A DNA stretch of 64,000 nucleotides from an uncultured Leptolyngbyaceae cyanobacterium. GTDB lineage: Bacteria; Cyanobacteriota; Cyanobacteriia; Leptolyngbyales; Leptolyngbyaceae. A program made the position numbers and the translations under genes. Positions 1,977-63,747 of the stretch are shown piece after piece. The DNA lies in NCBI GenBank assembly GCA_938023035.1, contig CALIDI010000021.1, positions 62,001 through 126,000 of the forward strand, written 5' to 3'. Under the pieces are notes generated by a model. The model had not been told where the DNA came from, made no database searches, and saw only the letters and a program-made list of their open reading frames with translations. How positions within the stretch are numbered: position 1 is the first letter of the stretch; the number at the start of each line of letters is the position of its first letter.

Positions 1977-4958
1977 ATGCCCTACCCGGCTCTTCCCCCT
2001 GAAACATCTTCTATTGAGATTGTTACGGCTTGTCAACTCCATTCTTGCCAATCCTCTCCATTTGCGGTTGCTGAACCAAGTCAGTTACCAGTTGAGCTGG
2101 CTCAAGTAGTGCCAGAAACTTCTACACCGGATCGGGGCACTGGGGCAGAGTTCACGGTTCAAACTGCTTTATCTCCACCAGAGCCAGCCGTTGCCAGGGT
2201 AGAAGCCGTCTCTCACAGCGCTCCTGAAGAAAAGCGTGAACCACCCCAAACAGAGGCGCTGCATCTGCATGAGCCAATGGCTGAAGCGCAAGCGTTGTTA
2301 GCCCCGAGCGCCCCTTCTTTAGCAACACCGCAGCCCACGACCGTTGCCGAATTCAAGGCTAATGCCGGCCCGGCCCAAGCCGATTTGCTCAAACAAGCAC
2401 CGCCGGTAACCCGCTCAGAGTTTTCGCCGATTCCGCTGGCGGCTGTTTCTTTAAATCAGTCGCTGGTGCAGGTGGAGCAGTCGCCTGGCGCGTTCACAGT
2501 GCCGGTAGAAGCGGTTGCCCGAATGGTTCCCCCTGCGGTTGCCGTGAGTCAGCCGCCTGTCTTAGCGGGGGAAGTCCCTTCTGACTTGGCAACGCTTTCT
2601 CAGCCAGCGTCGGGGGCAGCCCAAACGCCAGATGTAACGGCGATCGCATCTGAGGAAATTACAGACGCCCTGCTCGCCCAAGTGGCGACAAAAGGGTTTC
2701 CCTGGCAGGGCTATCTCGCGGATTGGGCGGCTGCGGGCCTTGATCAAAGGGCAACCCTGCAACGGTTGGCTCAGCCTCCTGCCAGTACCAGGGTTGCGAC
2801 CCCTTCCCAGGCTAGACAACGGCTCAATCGGGTTGGGGGGCGATCGCAGCCCATTCCACCCTTGAGTGTGGCCTGGGGCCGTAGTTTACAGCGACTACCG
2901 ATTACCCAAACCCCACCCGTTGCAGCCCCCACCCTCGGAGAGCCGCCCTCAGAGGCTACTACCAATGACAACACAATTCTGATTCAACCCAATGATGCGG
3001 CCCCAGCAACGGCCTCGCCCGATACCCCAGCGATTGTCCCACCTGATTCGCCATTGCCCTCACCCGGTTCGCCATCAACTCCGAGGGGCACTGATCCACC
3101 TGTGCCGCCAGGAACAGTTGGTGTGGTTGAGTTGAGCGCTGACCGCCAGGAATATGACGATCAACGGCAAATTTTTACCGCTGAAGGGAATGTCAAAATG
3201 CGATTTCAGGGGTCTTTGCTGGAGGCGGATCGGTTACAAGTGAATCTGGTGAATCGCATTTCTGTGGCGGAGGGGCAGGTGGCCCTGACGCGCGGCAATC
3301 AGATTTTGCGGGGGAGCCGGTTTGAGTACAACTTTGTCCAGGGGATTGGCACTGTTCAGAATGCTAGTGGGGAGTTGTTTCTGTCCACTACAGATAGAGA
3401 TTTGGATATCCCCCTAGGTACAGATGTAACCCAAGGAACCGCTATTGCACGACCTTTGAGCGATCGCATCCGCGCCAACCAACCCCAAACTGTGGTCGGA
3501 GCGGGGGGGGTCACCATTGTTGTCGGGGCCGGTCGGGATGTCAATCGGGCACCAGGGCAACCGCAAACTGTGCAGGGGCAGGTGAATCGGCTGCGATTTG
3601 AGGCCGAACAAATTGACTTCAGCCCACGCGTTTATGAAGCCAAAAAAATCCAGATTACAAATGACCCCTTCTCGCCTCCTGAATTGGTTTTAAGGGCCGA
3701 GCGAGCCGTGATTACTCGCATCAACCCAAATCAAGATGAGGTTGTGGCGACTCGTCCCCGGTTAGTGTTTGATCAACGGCTGGCCATTCCTTTGATTTCA
3801 AGGATTGTGCTAGACCGTCGCCAACGCCAGCCGGCCCTTTTGCAGGTGGGCTATGACAATGGTGAACGGGGCGGCCTTTTTATTTTTCGTAGCTTTGATA
3901 TTGTGCGTTCACCCAAGGTGAATCTCACCCTGACTCCGGAAATTTTCTTAGAGAAAATTGTGTTTGGTGGATCGGGGGTGTTCCAGGGTGAAAGCTATGG
4001 GCTGAGAGCACAGTTGGGGGCCGTGCTGAGTCCGACTACGACCTTGCGCGGAAGTGCGTCGCTCCGCAGCTTAGCCTTTGATGACCTGGTAGATAGCACC
4101 CGGGCAAGTTTGCGCCTGGGGCAACGGTTGGGAACCCATACGCTGGCCTTGGAGGCTAGTTATCGCGATCGCCTGTTTAATAACTCCCTCGGTTTTCAAA
4201 CGGTGCGCAGTAGTGTGGGGGCGGTGTTTTTCTCGCCACCTATTCTCCTAGGAAAAAGTGGGATCAGCATGAGCTACCAACTAGGGGTACAGAATATTAC
4301 TGCCGATACCGATCGGCCAGATTTGCTGGCCCCGATTCGCGACAATAACCGGATTAACCTAACTCGCTATCAGGGTGCGATCGCCTTCAATCGCACCTTC
4401 CGCCTGTGGACGGGGAAACCCCTGCCAGCGACCCAAACAGAGGGGTTACGCTACACCCCCACTCCTGTTGTTCCCTATCTGGCCCTTTCAACTGGGATCA
4501 CAGGGGTAACCAGCCTATACAGTAACAGTGATACCCAGAGTAATTTGATTGGTGCGGTTGGCATTGTTGGCCAGTTTGGCCATATGTCACGCAATTTCTT
4601 TGACTACACGGGCTTTAACATCACCTACGTGCAACTGGTTGGTCGGGGCTTGTCACCCTTTTTGTTTGACCGCACGGTCGATACGCGCATTCTTTCCCTA
4701 GGGATTGTGCAGCAAGTTTATGGGCCTTTTCGAGTTGGGTTTCAAACGGCGATTAACCTGGATACCAATAACCAGATTAGTACCGACTACATCCTGGAAT
4801 ATAGCCGCCGCACCTATGGCATTATTCTGCGCTACAACCCAATTCTAGAAATTGGCTCCCTTAACCTGCGGGTCAGTGACTTTAACTGGAGCGGTGGAAC
4901 AGAACCCTTTGAGGGGGCGGATGTCACCCCTGTTGAGGGCGGCATCCGTCGCGATTAG
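1977..4958 (+). CDS. DUF3769 protein, OstA/LptD-like outer-membrane barrel
   Basis: A 993-residue protein. Residues 1 to about 370 are low-complexity and rich in Pro, Ala, Thr and Gln. Around residues 380-480 there is an OstA/LptA-like segment (ELSADRQEYDDQ..., then FTAEGNVKMRFQG), the beta-jellyroll signature seen in LPS transport proteins. From about residue 610 to the end the alternating aromatic/polar pattern fits a beta-barrel, as in the cyanobacterial DUF3769 family. The inferred role is assembly or transport of lipopolysaccharide at the outer membrane. No clear N-terminal signal peptide follows the chosen ATG, so the start is uncertain. The gene stands alone and converges with a methyltransferase gene 43 bases away. 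Confidence 0.8.
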   Translation: MPYPALPPETSSIEIVTACQLHSCQSSPFAVAEPSQLPVELAQVVPETSTPDRGTGAEFTVQTALSPPEPAVARVEAVSHSAPEEKREPPQTEALHLHEPMAEAQALLAPSAPSLATPQPTTVAEFKANAGPAQADLLKQAPPVTRSEFSPIPLAAVSLNQSLVQVEQSPGAFTVPVEAVARMVPPAVAVSQPPVLAGEVPSDLATLSQPASGAAQTPDVTAIASEEITDALLAQVATKGFPWQGYLADWAAAGLDQRATLQRLAQPPASTRVATPSQARQRLNRVGGRSQPIPPLSVAWGRSLQRLPITQTPPVAAPTLGEPPSEATTNDNTILIQPNDAAPATASPDTPAIVPPDSPLPSPGSPSTPRGTDPPVPPGTVGVVELSADRQEYDDQRQIFTAEGNVKMRFQGSLLEADRLQVNLVNRISVAEGQVALTRGNQILRGSRFEYNFVQGIGTVQNASGELFLSTTDRDLDIPLGTDVTQGTAIARPLSDRIRANQPQTVVGAGGVTIVVGAGRDVNRAPGQPQTVQGQVNRLRFEAEQIDFSPRVYEAKKIQITNDPFSPPELVLRAERAVITRINPNQDEVVATRPRLVFDQRLAIPLISRIVLDRRQRQPALLQVGYDNGERGGLFIFRSFDIVRSPKVNLTLTPEIFLEKIVFGGSGVFQGESYGLRAQLGAVLSPTTTLRGSASLRSLAFDDLVDSTRASLRLGQRLGTHTLALEASYRDRLFNNSLGFQTVRSSVGAVFFSPPILLGKSGISMSYQLGVQNITADTDRPDLLAPIRDNNRINLTRYQGAIAFNRTFRLWTGKPLPATQTEGLRYTPTPVVPYLALSTGITGVTSLYSNSDTQSNLIGAVGIVGQFGHMSRNFFDYTGFNITYVQLVGRGLSPFLFDRTVDTRILSLGIVQQVYGPFRVGFQTAINLDTNNQISTDYILEYSRRTYGIILRYNPILEIGSLNLRVSDFNWSGGTEPFEGADVTPVEGGIRRD

Positions 4959-49701: not shown

Positions 49702-49995
49702 TTAGCAGATGTATTTTTCAATGTCTTCACCGCAAACATCTGAGAGATAGCTAAGGGCGCGAAAGCGGAGGGAAACAAATTCGTTGTAGAAGGGGTTCAG
49801 TTCACACAGGGGCGGGGTATGGAAGGGGTGGCCGAATAGGGTGAAGCGACGCTCGAAGGGGCAGGTGCAGGGAATCAGTTGACAGATCAGATGGGCAACA
49901 CGCGGGTTATGAATTTCGAGGCGATCAATCCAGTGGCGGATGGGTGTGAGAAAACCAACGAGAGGCGAGGTAGAGGGATGGAAAAGAGTAGCCAT
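49702..49995 (-). CDS. Mo-dependent nitrogenase family protein
   Basis: A 97-residue protein matching the cyanobacterial Mo-dependent nitrogenase C-terminal domain family: LFHPSTSPLVGFLTPIRHWIDRLEI, then the conserved VAHLICQLIPCTCPFERRFTLFG and LPPLCELNPFYNE-type segment (here FHTPPLCELNPFY). It contains six cysteines, two of them in CTCPFER. Despite its name it is not part of the nitrogenase enzyme itself; its function is unknown. It lies between nifK and nifE, separated from nifK by a stable stem-loop. Confidence 0.88.
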   Translation of the reverse strand: MATLFHPSTSPLVGFLTPIRHWIDRLEIHNPRVAHLICQLIPCTCPFERRFTLFGHPFHTPPLCELNPFYNEFVSLRFRALSYLSDVCGEDIEKYIC

Positions 49996-57271: not shown

Positions 57272-58750
57272 TCAAAACTCTTGAATGTGCTGGTCGTAAA
57301 ACTCCCTTGCCACTTTTTCAATCACATCGTAGGCTTCAACCACGTGCAAACCAGCCTCTCTTAGCTCAGCCTTCGGGCATTCGCCTACCTTAGAAACCAG
57401 AATTGCTTTGCAATCTGCGATCGCCTGAATCACATATTCCAGCGTGGCATCTTCGCCATAACCGCCCTGACAGTATTGGTCAATCTTGCGGTGTCCCACA
57501 AATTTAGCTTCGTTGGCATCGACTTCAAAGATCTGGAATTCTTTGGCGTGACCAAAATGCTGGTTGACAATGCCGCCGCCCTTGGTTGCCACTGCCACCA
57601 GGATTTTGGGACTGTTTTTGATGCGCTCACTGGGTTTGACTTTGGCTTTTGCCAGCTTGATTTCTTCTTTGAACCGCTCAATGCCCGCGTGAACTTCCCG
57701 CCGTAGTTCCAGATCGTACTGTTCTGGCATCTCCATAAACTTATCTTTGGTGAATTCTTGGCTGCGATCTTCGCCCAGCAGCCCAACGGCATCGGCACGA
57801 CACTGGCGACAGTGGCGCATCATCTTCATGTTGCTGTCAGCGCACTTGTCTTGCAGCTTTTTCAGTTCCTTGGGCGTAGGCCCCCGCTGCCCCGTTAAAC
57901 CAAAGTAGGTGCCGTGTTCCGGTGCCGAAATCAACGGCATAATATTGTGCAAAAAGGCCCCCTGTTCTCGGATAACCCGATCAACTTCCACCAGGTGCTC
58001 ATCATTGATGCCCGGAATCATGACCGAATTGACTTTGCACAGAATATCGGCTTCCCGCAAGGCCTGTAAGCCTTCCATTTGTCGCTCATGCAAGATCCGG
58101 GCAGCTTCCAGCCCTTTATAGCGTTTGCGGCGATAGTGAACCCAGGGATAAATCTTTGTCCCAATTTCTGGGTCTACCATGTTGATGGTGATGGTGACGT
58201 GATCCACATTCAAGGCTTTGATGCGATCGACGTAATCGGGCAACATTAAACCATTTGTTGAGAGACACAGTTTAATATCTGGTGCTTTATCGGCAATCAA
58301 CTCAAAGGTGCGAAATGTCTTTTCAGGATTCGCCAAAGGATCCCCTGGCCCTGCAATTCCTAACACAGTCATTTGGGGAATCTTGCCTGCAATCACCAGC
58401 ACCTTATGGGCGGCTTCTTCTGGCGTCAGCAACTCACTCACCACACCCGGGCGGCTTTCGTTAGCACAGTCATACTTGCGATTGCAGTAGTTGCATTGAA
58501 TGTTGCAGGCAGGAGCAACAGCAACATGCATCCGGGCATAGTGGTGGTGAGCTTCTTCACTGTAACAGGGATGCTTCGAGATTCGATCCAACATCCGCTG
58601 ATCTAGATTGGCGCTTGTATTGGGATTAGTGCTGCAACCACAGCTATCAGCACTTTTTTTCTGCGTCACCGTATTTTTAGTGATCGTAATGTCTGTAACA
58701 GTCTGAGCCGCAGGGTTAGAGAGCAGTTCTGAAGATGGAGGTGGTGTCAT
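57272..58750 (-). CDS. nifB: FeMo-co biosynthesis radical SAM protein NifB
   Basis: A 492-residue radical SAM protein that fuses two [4Fe-4S] clusters and inserts the central carbide to make NifB-co. The radical SAM motif is Cys82-x3-Cys86-x2-Cys89 (CNIQCNYC). Further cluster residues are in [14 protein letters not shown] and the [14 protein letters not shown] motif. The C-terminal domain (about 385-485) is NifX-like ([23 protein letters not shown]). It heads the minus-strand nif block and faces the shared 1.1-kb upstream region. ATG 58750 fits the family. Confidence 0.98.
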
Positions 58751-59877: not shown

Positions 59878-60657
59878 ATGCAGCCTCCTTCTCCTCCAAT
59901 CCTAATTTCCCTGCCGGGATCTTTACCCAAGAGCCTTTCTGAGGAACTGGAGTACCCACCAAAGGCTGTGAACTTCATCTGCGATCGCCTGTTTGAGGGC
60001 TTCCATGGCTTGAGAACGGCCTGGCAAACCCTGAGGGAAGATTTCTGTATCATCTTTGATCGCGATCCGGCAGCCCATCACTGGCTAGAAGTGGTCAGTT
60101 GTTACCCTGGTTTTCATGCAATTGTCTTGTACCGTTTGGCGCACTGGCTACATCTTCGGCGGATAATGCTCATCCCCCGGCTGATCTCTCACCTGACCCG
60201 ATTTCTCACTGGGATTGAGATTCATCCTGGTGCGGTGATTGGTAAAGGAGTTTTTATCGACCATGGCATGGGTGTGGTAATTGGGGAGACTGCGATCGTG
60301 GGTGACTACTGCCTGATTTATCAGGGGGTCACCCTGGGTGGCACAGGTAAAGAAACAGGCAGACGTCACCCTACCTTAGGTCAGCATGTAGTCGTGGGCG
60401 CAGGTGCCAAGATTCTTGGCAATATCCAAGTTGGTGACTATGCCCGCATTGGAGCTGGATCCATTGTGTTGCGAGATGTGCCCTCCCATTGCACTGCTGT
60501 CGGAGTGCCCGGTCGTAATATTTGTCGAACCAATACACAAACCTGCCCCCTTGAGCACGAACAAGTTCCTGATGTTGAAGCGGTTGCAGTCAAAGCATTG
60601 CTTGATCGACTGGAACTGTTAGAGCAACAAATTCACCAGTTAACTCAGAATCGTTAA
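59878..60657 (+). CDS. nifP: serine O-acetyltransferase of the nif cluster (NifP)
   Basis: A 259-residue CysE/NifP-type enzyme. The N-terminal helical part (about 30-90; HWLEVVSCYPGFHAIVLYRLAHWL) is followed by left-handed beta-helix hexapeptide repeats: IHPGAVIGKGVFIDHGMGVVIGE, VTLGGTGKE, HPTLGQHVVVGAGAKILGN. It makes O-acetylserine for cysteine, feeding sulphur to NifS. It is the first gene of the plus-strand nif block; the control region lies upstream. About 30 residues precede the first conserved helix, so the true start might be slightly later. Confidence 0.95.
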   Translation: MQPPSPPILISLPGSLPKSLSEELEYPPKAVNFICDRLFEGFHGLRTAWQTLREDFCIIFDRDPAAHHWLEVVSCYPGFHAIVLYRLAHWLHLRRIMLIPRLISHLTRFLTGIEIHPGAVIGKGVFIDHGMGVVIGETAIVGDYCLIYQGVTLGGTGKETGRRHPTLGQHVVVGAGAKILGNIQVGDYARIGAGSIVLRDVPSHCTAVGVPGRNICRTNTQTCPLEHEQVPDVEAVAVKALLDRLELLEQQIHQLTQNR

Positions 60658-60698: not shown

Positions 60699-60995
60699 AT
60701 GTCTTCCCTGCCCTCTGCAAAACCTGGTATTCCCCAGGTTGATACCCTGCCAAATTTTCAGACTTCTATGACCCATGTTGTTTCCGTCCCACGGGGCGAT
60801 CGCTGGCGGATTTATCATCGCCTCCAGGAATTGATGATTCCCTGCTGGTGCTTGCCTGATGGCTCGCTACGAGTCGAAGTAAAACACAGTATCGCGGCCA
60901 TTCTATTACGCAGTGTTGTACAGCAGTTTATTGCCCCTCGCATAGAGATGGTGAACTGGCTAGAGCGATGTTGGACTGCTGATCAGCCCAGGTGA
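60699..60995 (+). CDS. Asr1405/Asl0597-like small protein of the nif cluster
   Basis: A 98-residue protein resembling the Asr1405/Asl0597 family, found between nifP and nifV in Nostoc-type nif clusters. The conserved core is PRGDRWRIYHRLQEL, PCWCLPDGSLRVEV, then LLRSVVQQF. Its biochemical role is unknown. The N-terminal 30 residues look variable. GAGGTAAT lies before the ATG at 60699. It follows nifP by 41 bases, so it is probably in the same transcript. Confidence 0.78.
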   Translation: MSSLPSAKPGIPQVDTLPNFQTSMTHVVSVPRGDRWRIYHRLQELMIPCWCLPDGSLRVEVKHSIAAILLRSVVQQFIAPRIEMVNWLERCWTADQPR

Positions 60996-61108: not shown

Positions 61109-61657
61109 ATGACACAAGCACAGGCACTCGTACAAGAATTTGGCCAGGTTCAAGTCAATCCGGTTGCCTTGGGGCAGGAAGTGACAATTCCAGTGTGTGA
61201 GGGCTTAAATATTGCCCTTGCCAGTTTTCAAGGGCTTTATTTGCAATATCAAAAGCATCACTTTGTGATTGAAGGCGCAGAATTTTACTCCTTGCATGAG
61301 TTTTTTGCAGAAAGTTATGGCCAAGTGCAAGAATACGTGCATCAAATCGGAGAACGGTTGAATGGCTTGGGAGGTGTTCCTGCAGCGAGTTTCAGCAAGT
61401 TAGCTGAACTGTGCTGTTTTACTCCCGAAGCTGATGGCAGTTTTACTGCTCGGCAGATGGTGGAGCATGATCTGGAAGCTGAACAGGCCATTATTGATGT
61501 TTTACGGCGACAAGCAGCCCAGGCAGAGAGTATTGGCGATCGCGCCAGCCGCTACCTCTACGAACAGTTTCTACTACAAACGGAAGAACGTGCCTTTCAT
61601 TTAGCCCATTTTCTGGCAGAAGACAGCTTGATCTTTCCCTTTGTGGGTCGCGCCTGA
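61109..61657 (+). CDS. Dps-like ferritin-family protein
   Basis: A 182-residue Dps-fold four-helix protein. The N-terminal helix and pattern [24 protein letters not shown] resemble the Dps dimer interface. Ferroxidase-type residues include His in [18 protein letters not shown] and Glu/Asp nearby. Dps-like proteins store iron and remove peroxide, which suits oxygen-sensitive nitrogenase. ATG 61109 has AGGAAA upstream; an in-frame 26-codon hydrophobic extension is rejected. Similar dps genes lie in nif clusters of other non-heterocystous cyanobacteria. Confidence 0.85.
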
Positions 61658-61790: not shown

Positions 61791-62009
61791 ATGGGTAGCA
61801 ACACGCCCCTGATTCAGTTTTTACACCATGAATTGGCAATTTCAGCCGCAGAGATGGATGTGTTGTTACGCCATCCGGAGTTAGCCTATGCACCATTGCC
61901 CATGCTGCTTTGGCAGTATGGGCTGATATCGTTACAACAGCTTGCCCAGGTTTTTGATTGGCTAGAAGCCCAATGTGATCAGGCTCAAAGTTTGATGGAT
62001 GCAACTTAG
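61791..62009 (+). CDS. DUF2949 small protein
   Basis: A 72-residue protein matching DUF2949: LIQFLHHELAISAAEMDVLLRH, then LPMLLWQYGLISLQQLAQVFDWLE. It is a small helical, cytoplasmic protein of unknown function. AGGAGACC precedes the ATG. It lies between the Dps-like gene and the 38-codon ORF, in the plus-strand nif block. Confidence 0.85.
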   Translation: MGSNTPLIQFLHHELAISAAEMDVLLRHPELAYAPLPMLLWQYGLISLQQLAQVFDWLEAQCDQAQSLMDAT

Positions 62010-62018
62010 GAGGTTCCC

Positions 62019-62135
62019 ATGTTAGAGACGTTTGTAATAGCAATGATGTTTTGTTTTGTGATGCCCTTGCTTTATAAATTGATGCTGCTGTGGATTGGGC
62101 ATGAACTCGCTCACCCTCATACCAAACGAGACTGA
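62019..62135 (+). CDS. 38-residue membrane peptide ORF before nifV
   Basis: A 38-codon ORF: MLETFVIAMMFCFVMPLLYK, then a hydrophobic LMLLWIG and the polar tail HELAHPHTKRD. One transmembrane segment (about residues 4-30). It has a textbook ribosome binding site, AGGAGG at 62008-62013, spaced 5 bases from the ATG. It starts 10 bases after the DUF2949 stop and ends 4 bases before the nifV ATG, which is what a real operon gene would look like. No family is recognised; function unknown. Confidence 0.6.
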   Translation: MLETFVIAMMFCFVMPLLYKLMLLWIGHELAHPHTKRD

Positions 62136-62139
62136 TTCT

Positions 62140-63291
62140 ATGAATTTATCACGACCAGCAACTTCTGTTCAAATTAACGATACAACTCTGCGAGACGGAG
62201 AACAGGCAGCCGGCGTTGCCTTTAATCTGAAAGAAAAAATTGCGATCGCGACCTTTTTGGACTCGATTGGTGTGCAGGAACTAGAGGTCGGCATTCCGGC
62301 GATGGGTAAAGAAGAGGAGGCGTCAATCCAGGCGATCGCAAACCTAGGGCTAAAAGCTCAACTACTGGGTTGGAATCGGGCAACGATCTCTGATGTTCAA
62401 GCGTCTCTTCGCTGCGGGTTACAGCGCATTCACGTTTCTGTACCGGTTTCAGAAATTCAGATTGCGGCAAAGTTTCATGGCCAGAGGCAGGTCATGTTAG
62501 CCCGCCTCTATGATGTGATGGCCTTTGCCCTTGATCACGGGTTGAGCGTGTCGGTAGGGGGTGAAGATTCTTCTAGAGCCGATGAATCCTTTCTCCTAGA
62601 TGTGGCACGCTTTGCCCAAGACTGGGGTGCCTTTCGATTTCGTTTTTGTGACACGGTGGGCGTGCTCGATCCATTAATCACTTACCACAAAGTTCGCCGC
62701 CTAGTTTCTGGTCTGGCGATTCCGGTCGAAATGCATACCCATAACGACTTAGGTCTGGCAACCGCCAATGCTTTAGCTGGCGTGCGGGCCGGGGCACTCT
62801 CGCTCAATACCACTGTAAATGGTTTGGGTGAACGGGCCGGTAACGCGGCTCTGGAAGAGGTTGTGATGGCGCTGAAATGCATCTATGGCATTCAGGTAGG
62901 GATTGATACCCGGCGGTTGCTGGAGTTGTCGCGTCTAGTGGCAACGGCCTCTAACTGCCCAGTACCCCCGTGGAAAGCCATTGTGGGCGAAAACACCTTT
63001 GCCCATGAATCGGGTATTCATGCCCATGGTGTGCTGCAAAATCCTGTGACCTATGAACCCTTTGCGCCAGAAGATGTTGGCTGGGAGCGCCGCTTTGTTG
63101 TGGGTAAACATTCGGGTCGGCACCTGGTATTAAGTGTGTTGCAACAGCAGGGCATTGTTCTCAGTTCTGAAGAGGCTGAGTCGGTGCTAGAAGCGGTGCG
63201 ACACCAAGCGGTCGAGGCAAAACGCAGCCTCACCACTGAAGAACTATTGCGTTTAATTCCCCAAGCGAGGTCTTACGCCCATGCAATCTGA
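62140..63291 (+). CDS. nifV: homocitrate synthase NifV
   Basis: A 383-residue DRE-TIM metallolyase that condenses acetyl-CoA and 2-oxoglutarate into homocitrate, the organic part of FeMo-co. The motifs are INDTTLRDGEQAAGVAF at the start, the metal site HTHNDLGLATANAL and the GLGERAGNAALEEV loop. The ATG at 62140 is set by the 38-codon ORF that ends just before; an upstream frame (62095) overlaps that ORF. The stop overlaps the nifZ start by 11 bases. Confidence 0.97.
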   Translation: MNLSRPATSVQINDTTLRDGEQAAGVAFNLKEKIAIATFLDSIGVQELEVGIPAMGKEEEASIQAIANLGLKAQLLGWNRATISDVQASLRCGLQRIHVSVPVSEIQIAAKFHGQRQVMLARLYDVMAFALDHGLSVSVGGEDSSRADESFLLDVARFAQDWGAFRFRFCDTVGVLDPLITYHKVRRLVSGLAIPVEMHTHNDLGLATANALAGVRAGALSLNTTVNGLGERAGNAALEEVVMALKCIYGIQVGIDTRRLLELSRLVATASNCPVPPWKAIVGENTFAHESGIHAHGVLQNPVTYEPFAPEDVGWERRFVVGKHSGRHLVLSVLQQQGIVLSSEEAESVLEAVRHQAVEAKRSLTTEELLRLIPQARSYAHAI

Positions 63292-63544
63292 TGAAATTGA
63301 AATCGATTCCCCACCTGTTTTTGAAATTGGCCAGAAGGTGCGATCGCGCAAATTGATTCGCAATGATGGGACTTTTCCTGGTAAAGATATTGGCGCAATC
63401 CTAGCTAAAAAGGGAGATGTAGGTTATGTCATCAGCATTGGCACTTTCTTACAAAGTTCCTATATCTATGCTGTTCACTTTATGACCACAGGAAATATTG
63501 TCGGCTGCCGTAAGAAAGAACTTGAACTTGCTGAGGAAATCTAA
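63281..63544 (+). CDS. nifZ: nitrogenase accessory protein NifZ
   Basis: An 87-residue NifZ. The SH3-like core is PVFEIGQKVRSRKLIRNDGTFPG, then GDVGYVISIGTFLQSSYIYAVHF. NifZ helps form the second P-cluster pair of MoFe protein. The start overlaps nifV by 11 bases and the stop overlaps nifT by 1 base (TAATG), so all three are translationally linked. Confidence 0.95.
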   Translation: MQSDEIEIDSPPVFEIGQKVRSRKLIRNDGTFPGKDIGAILAKKGDVGYVISIGTFLQSSYIYAVHFMTTGNIVGCRKKELELAEEI

Positions 63545-63747
63545 TGAAAGTGATGCTGCGCCAAAATGCTGCTGGACATCTTGTTGTCTATGTTGCGAAA
63601 AAAGACCTGGAAGAGGAAGTAGTCAAAGAAGTGGAAACTGAAACTGAAAAAATTTACACGTTGGCTAATGGTTGGGAACTCGCGATCGCCAGTGAAGAAA
63701 TCCCCGCAGCGTTTCCTAAAACTGTAGAAGCTCGGCGCGTTGCTTAG
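63544..63747 (+). CDS. nifT: nitrogen fixation protein NifT/FixU
   Basis: A 67-residue NifT. It starts MKVMLRQNAAGHLVVYVAKKDLEE and contains LANGWELAI, the family end. The function is unclear; deletion in other bacteria has little effect. The ATG shares its A with the nifZ TAA (TAATG). It is the last gene of the plus-strand block; a copy of repeat R1 lies 75 bases downstream. Confidence 0.95.
   Translation: MKVMLRQNAAGHLVVYVAKKDLEEEVVKEVETETEKIYTLANGWELAIASEEIPAAFPKTVEARRVA

Follow-up and report, generated by a model that had tools for sequence, protein, structure and literature searches.

On the plus strand of the window (the whole stretch of DNA that we analyzed, 64,000 nucleotides from an uncultured Leptolyngbyaceae cyanobacterium), nifP is followed by genes for an Asr1405/Asl0597 family protein, DpsA, and a DUF2949 protein, and then by nifV, nifZ, and nifT (Table 1). 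We assigned these identities by profile search (cysE/nifP, the Asr1405 family, DpsA, PF11165 for DUF2949, nifV, NifZ, and NifT). A minus-strand cluster that runs from nifB to hesA diverges from nifP. The same divergent nifB/nifP layout was reported in Leptolyngbya boryana, where CnfR activates both promoters (PMC5943405). We also note a second stretch that resembles the DUF2949 gene elsewhere in the genome (G000:C4:106249-106320, locus L002; 76% identity over 72 bases).

The spacer between the DUF2949 gene and nifV contains a small ORF, which encodes the peptide MLETFVIAMMFCFVMPLLYKLMLLWIGHELAHPHTKRD. The initial annotation of this DNA had placed an ORF between these two genes, with an AGGAGG Shine-Dalgarno sequence, a start 10 bases past the preceding gene, and an end 4 bases before nifV. 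Our coordinates agree (the gap from the DUF2949 stop codon to the ATG is 9 nt and the gap from the TGA to the ATG of nifV is 4 nt), and both neighbors were identified by profile. It had also described one transmembrane helix and a polar tail. Hydropathy and AlphaFold2 likewise predict one hydrophobic helix that is long enough to span a membrane, and AlphaFold2 places it at residues 2-31 (mean pLDDT of 84). Across 49 homologues, there are no lysines or arginines before the hydrophobic segment and 133 after it, a contrast that is partly built in because the start of the protein is very short. By the positive-inside rule, this suggests that the N-terminus is outside and the C-terminus is inside. 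Given these predictions, the product very probably spans the membrane.

Table 1. Features of the window around the small ORF.
Feature	Coordinates	Strand	Remarks
97-aa ORF	49702..49995	-	between nifK and nifE
nifB	57272..58750	-	divergent from nifP
nifP (cysE type)	59878..60657	+	first gene of the module; profile match; divergent from nifB
Asr1405/Asl0597 family protein	60699..60995	+	module partner; NF045598
dpsA (ferritin-like DpsA)	61109..61657	+	module partner; profile match
DUF2949 protein, 72 aa	61791..62009	+	module partner; PF11165; 9 nt upstream of the small ORF
Shine-Dalgarno AGGAGG	62008..62013	+	5 nt 5' of the small-ORF ATG; shares bases with the DUF2949 stop codon
small ORF, 38 aa	62019..62135	+	ATG start, TGA stop; predicted single transmembrane helix (about residues 3-26), then a polar, basic C-terminal tail
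nifV	62140..63291	+	profile match; no clear Shine-Dalgarno of its own in the window
nifZ and nifT	63281..63747	+	profile matches; NifT at 63544..63747, with its own Pfam family

Recurrence, selection, and family relationships

To ask how often such an ORF occurs, we collected about 115 nifV loci from across the class and extracted the region upstream of the gene. Of these loci, 71 have a comparable spacer, by which we mean that a co-oriented nifP, asr1405, dpsA, or DUF2949 gene lies 100-900 nt upstream of nifV. We counted a spacer as positive if it contained an ORF of 26-56 amino acids with an ATG start, a Shine-Dalgarno sequence, and a strongly hydrophobic 17-residue stretch. The initial annotation had suggested comparing the DUF2949-nifV spacer across cyanobacteria as a check, and this comparison bore it out: a qualifying ORF, with a Shine-Dalgarno sequence and one predicted membrane helix, is present in 49 of the 71 spacers, whereas dinucleotide-shuffled versions of these spacers would yield 0.25. 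The reverse strand of these spacers gave 1/71, and the other intergenic spacers of the same loci gave 0/74. The 49 positive loci are related to each other, so they are not 49 independent events, but the controls are equally related. A conserved ribosome-binding site with an open frame at the same place far exceeds chance expectation.

The initial annotation had also staked its claim on finding the ORF conserved in close relatives that keep this gene order, and the ORF passed this check. Searching the order, we identified a 38-residue peptide at the equivalent position in G011 that is 63% identical to the window's, and G013 and G015 gave weaker matches in the region 5' of nifV. Reading the spacers of further Leptolyngbya-like genomes directly revealed peptides of the same design, and homologous peptides are present in many relatives. 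The Shine-Dalgarno site is retained in most of the homologues.

The small-ORF frame is under purifying selection, which acts on the encoded amino acids. Between the window and G011, dS is 0.96 and dN is 0.25 (Nei-Gojobori method). Pooled dN/dS ratios by the same method are 0.19-0.47 in four groups, and are rough in the more distant groups because synonymous sites are near saturation. Among 19 Nostoc-type genomes, the ORF is free of gaps, neither the start codon nor the GAGG core varies, and pN/pS is 0.35 in the real frame as compared to 0.83 and 1.81 when either of the other frames is read. In the Nostoc-type genomes, the stretch 3' of the ORF varies as little as the ORF or even less (variability of 0.101 versus 0.05-0.15 for the three codon positions), which implies that there is a regulatory element there too. 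We noticed the motif GTTnnCTGnCATACAGAT between the small ORF and nifV at L214:3332-3349 (+) and at the corresponding position in some 30 loci from Nostocales; the sequence around it is better conserved than the small ORF. The motif is retained even in loci where the small ORF has been lost, and it may be a promoter or regulatory site for nifV.

We sorted the peptides into a Leptolyngbya type, a Nostoc type, an Oscillatoria type, and a unicellular type of 26-32 amino acids. When we compared profiles, the Leptolyngbya type aligned end to end with the Nostoc type (probability 83%) and with the Oscillatoria type (90%), and there was no direct match between the Nostoc-type and Oscillatoria-type profiles (2.5%). 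From these alignments, the three types are probably homologous. The peptides have a recurrent design: a start resembling M-[LIF]-x-[TS]-L, then a hydrophobic stretch with a polar residue and next an aromatic one near its end, and then a basic, polar tail. Outside of the membrane segment, the sequence drifts quickly. The unicellular-type ORFs are found in the spacer between asr1405 and nifV in unicellular types with small genomes (L122, L123, L125, L127, and L128); they have Shine-Dalgarno sequences and encode nearly all hydrophobic residues, and these peptides may be non-homologous to the window's.

The Leptolyngbya-type profile also matches genomes that were absent from the set used to build it (G028, 3.4e-7; G020, 2.7e-6; G022, 1.3e-4; and Pseudanabaena-type genomes, 0.004-0.08), and the strong held-out matches lie in the nifP module. 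We took weak profile matches outside of nif clusters (E > ~0.01) to be noise; in the ones that we inspected (L163, L165, and L166), we saw no intact ORF of this family near nif genes. Searches of Pfam and NCBIfam gave no match above the curated cut-offs that was common to the family, and only sporadic matches of single members. A search of solved structures gave a single match (E = 8.3), which we attribute to chance. We consider the small ORF to represent a new family of a known kind, and the finding to be real and of moderate interest.

Gene tables appear to omit the small ORF, which the initial annotation called a gene of a kind usually missed. On a plasmid of Pseudanabaena sp. ABRG5-3, the small ORF MTETLVVSCLVLITTYFQDYMMRRMLNIDEEESHRQPK lies downstream of cysE, in a stretch with no annotated gene (in the PLSDB table, which is incomplete). 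In a published gene table, the orthologues of asr1406 and nifV have consecutive record numbers (PMC2821919), which suggests that no gene was called between them. We found no named small ORF at this place in the open-access literature that we searched, and the locus goes unmentioned in the main text of a proteogenomics paper on Nostoc PCC 7120. Of three nifP-like matches on plasmids, two turned out to be ordinary cysE loci.

Linkage to the nifP module, and loss

The small ORF does not always stand before nifV as it does in the window; there are several arrangements. In G028, G020, and G022, the order is nifP-asr1405(-dpsA), the small ORF, a gene of about 100 amino acids, and then nifE and nifN. 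G112, G203, G173, and G283 have nifP, the small ORF, a similar gene of about 100 amino acids, and nifE, while the small ORF of G043 and G067 follows dpsA and precedes nifT. We also note that the 97-aa ORF between nifK and nifE in the window is similar to the 99-aa ORF that lies downstream of the small ORF in other clusters; ORFs of the 99-aa type are annotated elsewhere as Mo-dependent nitrogenase C-terminal domain proteins.

Among 80 named genomes, the small ORF is present in 39 of 55 loci with a nifP/asr1405/DUF2949 context and in none of the 24 copies of nifV that lack this context (the one remaining locus is truncated). Across the whole class, it is present in 59/90 loci with the module context and 0/25 without; this comparison is partly circular, as the profiles were partly built on these loci, but circularity does not explain the contrast with the paralogous copies of nifV. 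Because the small ORF stays with the module when nifV is elsewhere, we view it as a member of the module (nifP, asr1405, dpsA, DUF2949). Neither DUF2949 nor dpsA is an obligate partner, as there are contexts without one or the other. The proposal that this is a likely real nif-operon gene holds in that the frame is conserved and under purifying selection, with one correction: it is the nifP-asr1405-dpsA-DUF2949 module, and not nifV, that the ORF is stably associated with.

The small ORF is absent from G008, G016, several Nostocales, and many Oscillatoria-type loci with short spacers. The locus in G016 is otherwise intact, and an alignment with G020 and G022 shows that the front of the ORF was deleted and that the tail region was left behind as a relic between dpsA and the 99-aa ORF (L250, reverse complement, ~4048-4200). 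Since the small ORF has been lost in several lineages of nitrogen fixers, it is accessory and not essential for nitrogen fixation in general. The gene order in G016 is the one that was published for Leptolyngbya boryana (nifP-orf84-dpsA-orf99-nifE; PMC6428710, PMC5943405). The published NK7 deletion spans this interval and has low activity, but deleting nifP by itself leaves just 22% of the activity, so the loss of nifP largely accounts for the phenotype of NK7. Just upstream of nifV in L066, a Nostoc-type small ORF has an apparent frameshift at its start (there is in-frame sequence without the usual ATG), and several Oscillatoria-type genomes have short tandem repeats where the small ORF would be (in the dpsA-nifV spacer of L071).

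Possible role of the microprotein

The small ORF is almost certainly a real gene, and the nifP transcription unit would then include it as a protein-coding gene. The nifP promoter is under the control of CnfR in L. boryana (PMC5943405), so we expect the small ORF to be expressed along with nitrogenase; for the window, we infer this from the layout, and co-expression from the nifP promoter would mean that cells make the product at the same time as the other nif proteins. At about 40 residues, this microprotein would insert into the membrane by its one helix, so that the N-terminus lies outside and the short basic tail faces the cytoplasm.

We propose, with a probability of roughly 0.5, that the product serves a membrane complex as an accessory subunit or modulator. 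Proteins with so little soluble part mostly act by packing on a larger membrane protein, which is why we favor this role; SliP4 (PMC12850537) is an instance from cyanobacteria. The helix would pack against a larger membrane complex that is needed for nitrogen fixation and would tune its activity, assembly, or stability. Candidates include a respiratory or electron-supply complex, or a transporter for iron, molybdate, or sulfur. The fast drift outside of the membrane segment does not indicate one conserved partner surface, which argues against an accessory subunit. A more specific suggestion, which we offer tentatively, is that these peptides form a nif microprotein family specific to cyanobacteria that docks on a membrane complex and fits it to what nitrogenase needs in cells that produce oxygen, be it a supply of electrons, the removal of oxygen, or the uptake of metal or sulfur. 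Such a family could have been overlooked so far because its members are too short for annotation and drift too fast for ordinary searches.

The main rival to the accessory-subunit reading is that the helix is a membrane anchor, which would tether NifP, Asr1405, DpsA, or the DUF2949 protein to the membrane and place the supply of cysteine or iron there. The small ORF accompanies exactly these four genes through rearrangements, all four proteins are predicted to be soluble, and the tail is predicted to be cytoplasmic. But none of the four is constant (some loci pair the small ORF with just nifP or just asr1405, and some lack DUF2949 or dpsA), and the tail is short and poorly conserved. We think that an anchor is unlikely, if still worth considering.

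Alternatively, the ORF might be a leader peptide or act by translational coupling, so that it mainly delivers ribosomes to nifV and its amino-acid sequence is of little importance. This would fit the window, where the stop codon nearly abuts a nifV that has no clear Shine-Dalgarno sequence; the distance is similar in G011, and the ORF overlaps the start of nifV in G032 and G025. However, the ORF persists where nifV is not adjacent (before the gene that precedes nifE, or before nifT), it is about 165 nt or more from nifV in Nostocales, and there is selection on the protein sequence, all of which makes this improbable. We reject a nifV leader peptide as a general explanation, since the small ORF is not always directly upstream of nifV and accompanies 0/24 and 0/25 of the nifV copies that lack the nifP module. 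In Leptolyngbya-type genomes, it is plausible that coupling to nifV adds a local effect, because there the stop codon and the start of nifV are within a few bases of each other or overlap.

There might also be no single family: ORFs for single helices could have arisen repeatedly in this spacer, or they could be a side effect of some DNA or RNA element that is conserved. The types are strongly divergent, with no direct match between the two most distant profiles, and the conserved stretch after the ORF in Nostocales would suit a conserved element. We give this little credence given the frame-specific purifying selection within types, the conserved Shine-Dalgarno sequence and start, the 0/74 control spacers, and the end-to-end profile matches. 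A chance ORF with no product is strongly disfavored by the enrichment, selection, and conservation results, even though the ORF is short and hydrophobic and has no homologue in curated libraries.

The small ORF has some practical relevance. Work toward nitrogen-fixing crops includes the transfer of cyanobacterial nif clusters to other phototrophs, guided by gene lists that derive from annotation. A conserved gene of the nifP unit that these lists omit would be a candidate for a component that the transferred clusters lack, or should at least be used as a control. The small ORF is also a case of a fast-evolving membrane microprotein that is recognizable only by its position, its ribosome-binding site, and its helix.

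Among known proteins, NifT/FixU is, like the small-ORF product, a small protein from nif clusters with no assigned function, but it is distinct from that product, is of a soluble type, and has a Pfam family to itself (Table 1). CydX, KdpF, AcrZ, and MgtR are proteins of about 30-50 amino acids with one helix; they are often encoded beside or within the operon of a larger membrane protein, which they modulate. The small-ORF product resembles them in size and in having a single predicted helix, and we saw no sequence relation. Norf4 from Synechocystis 6803 (31 amino acids) likewise has one predicted membrane helix, was missed by earlier annotation, and is widespread in cyanobacteria, but its sequence is extremely conserved, in contrast to the fast drift of the small-ORF family, and the paper states no link to nif (PMC5126843). 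SliP4 (first named HliR1), a 37-amino-acid protein from Synechocystis 6803, is another protein of about 40 residues with one predicted membrane helix (PMC12850537, PMC5126843), and its position upstream of a functional gene, sodB, which was noted in the 2016 paper (PMC5126843), is a further likeness. SliP4 differs in that it is induced by high light, its neighbor is sodB instead of a nif gene, and homologues were reported only in Synechocystis. SliP4 aids the association of NDH1 with the photosystems (PMC12850537), and by analogy, it could be a precedent for how the small-ORF product acts.
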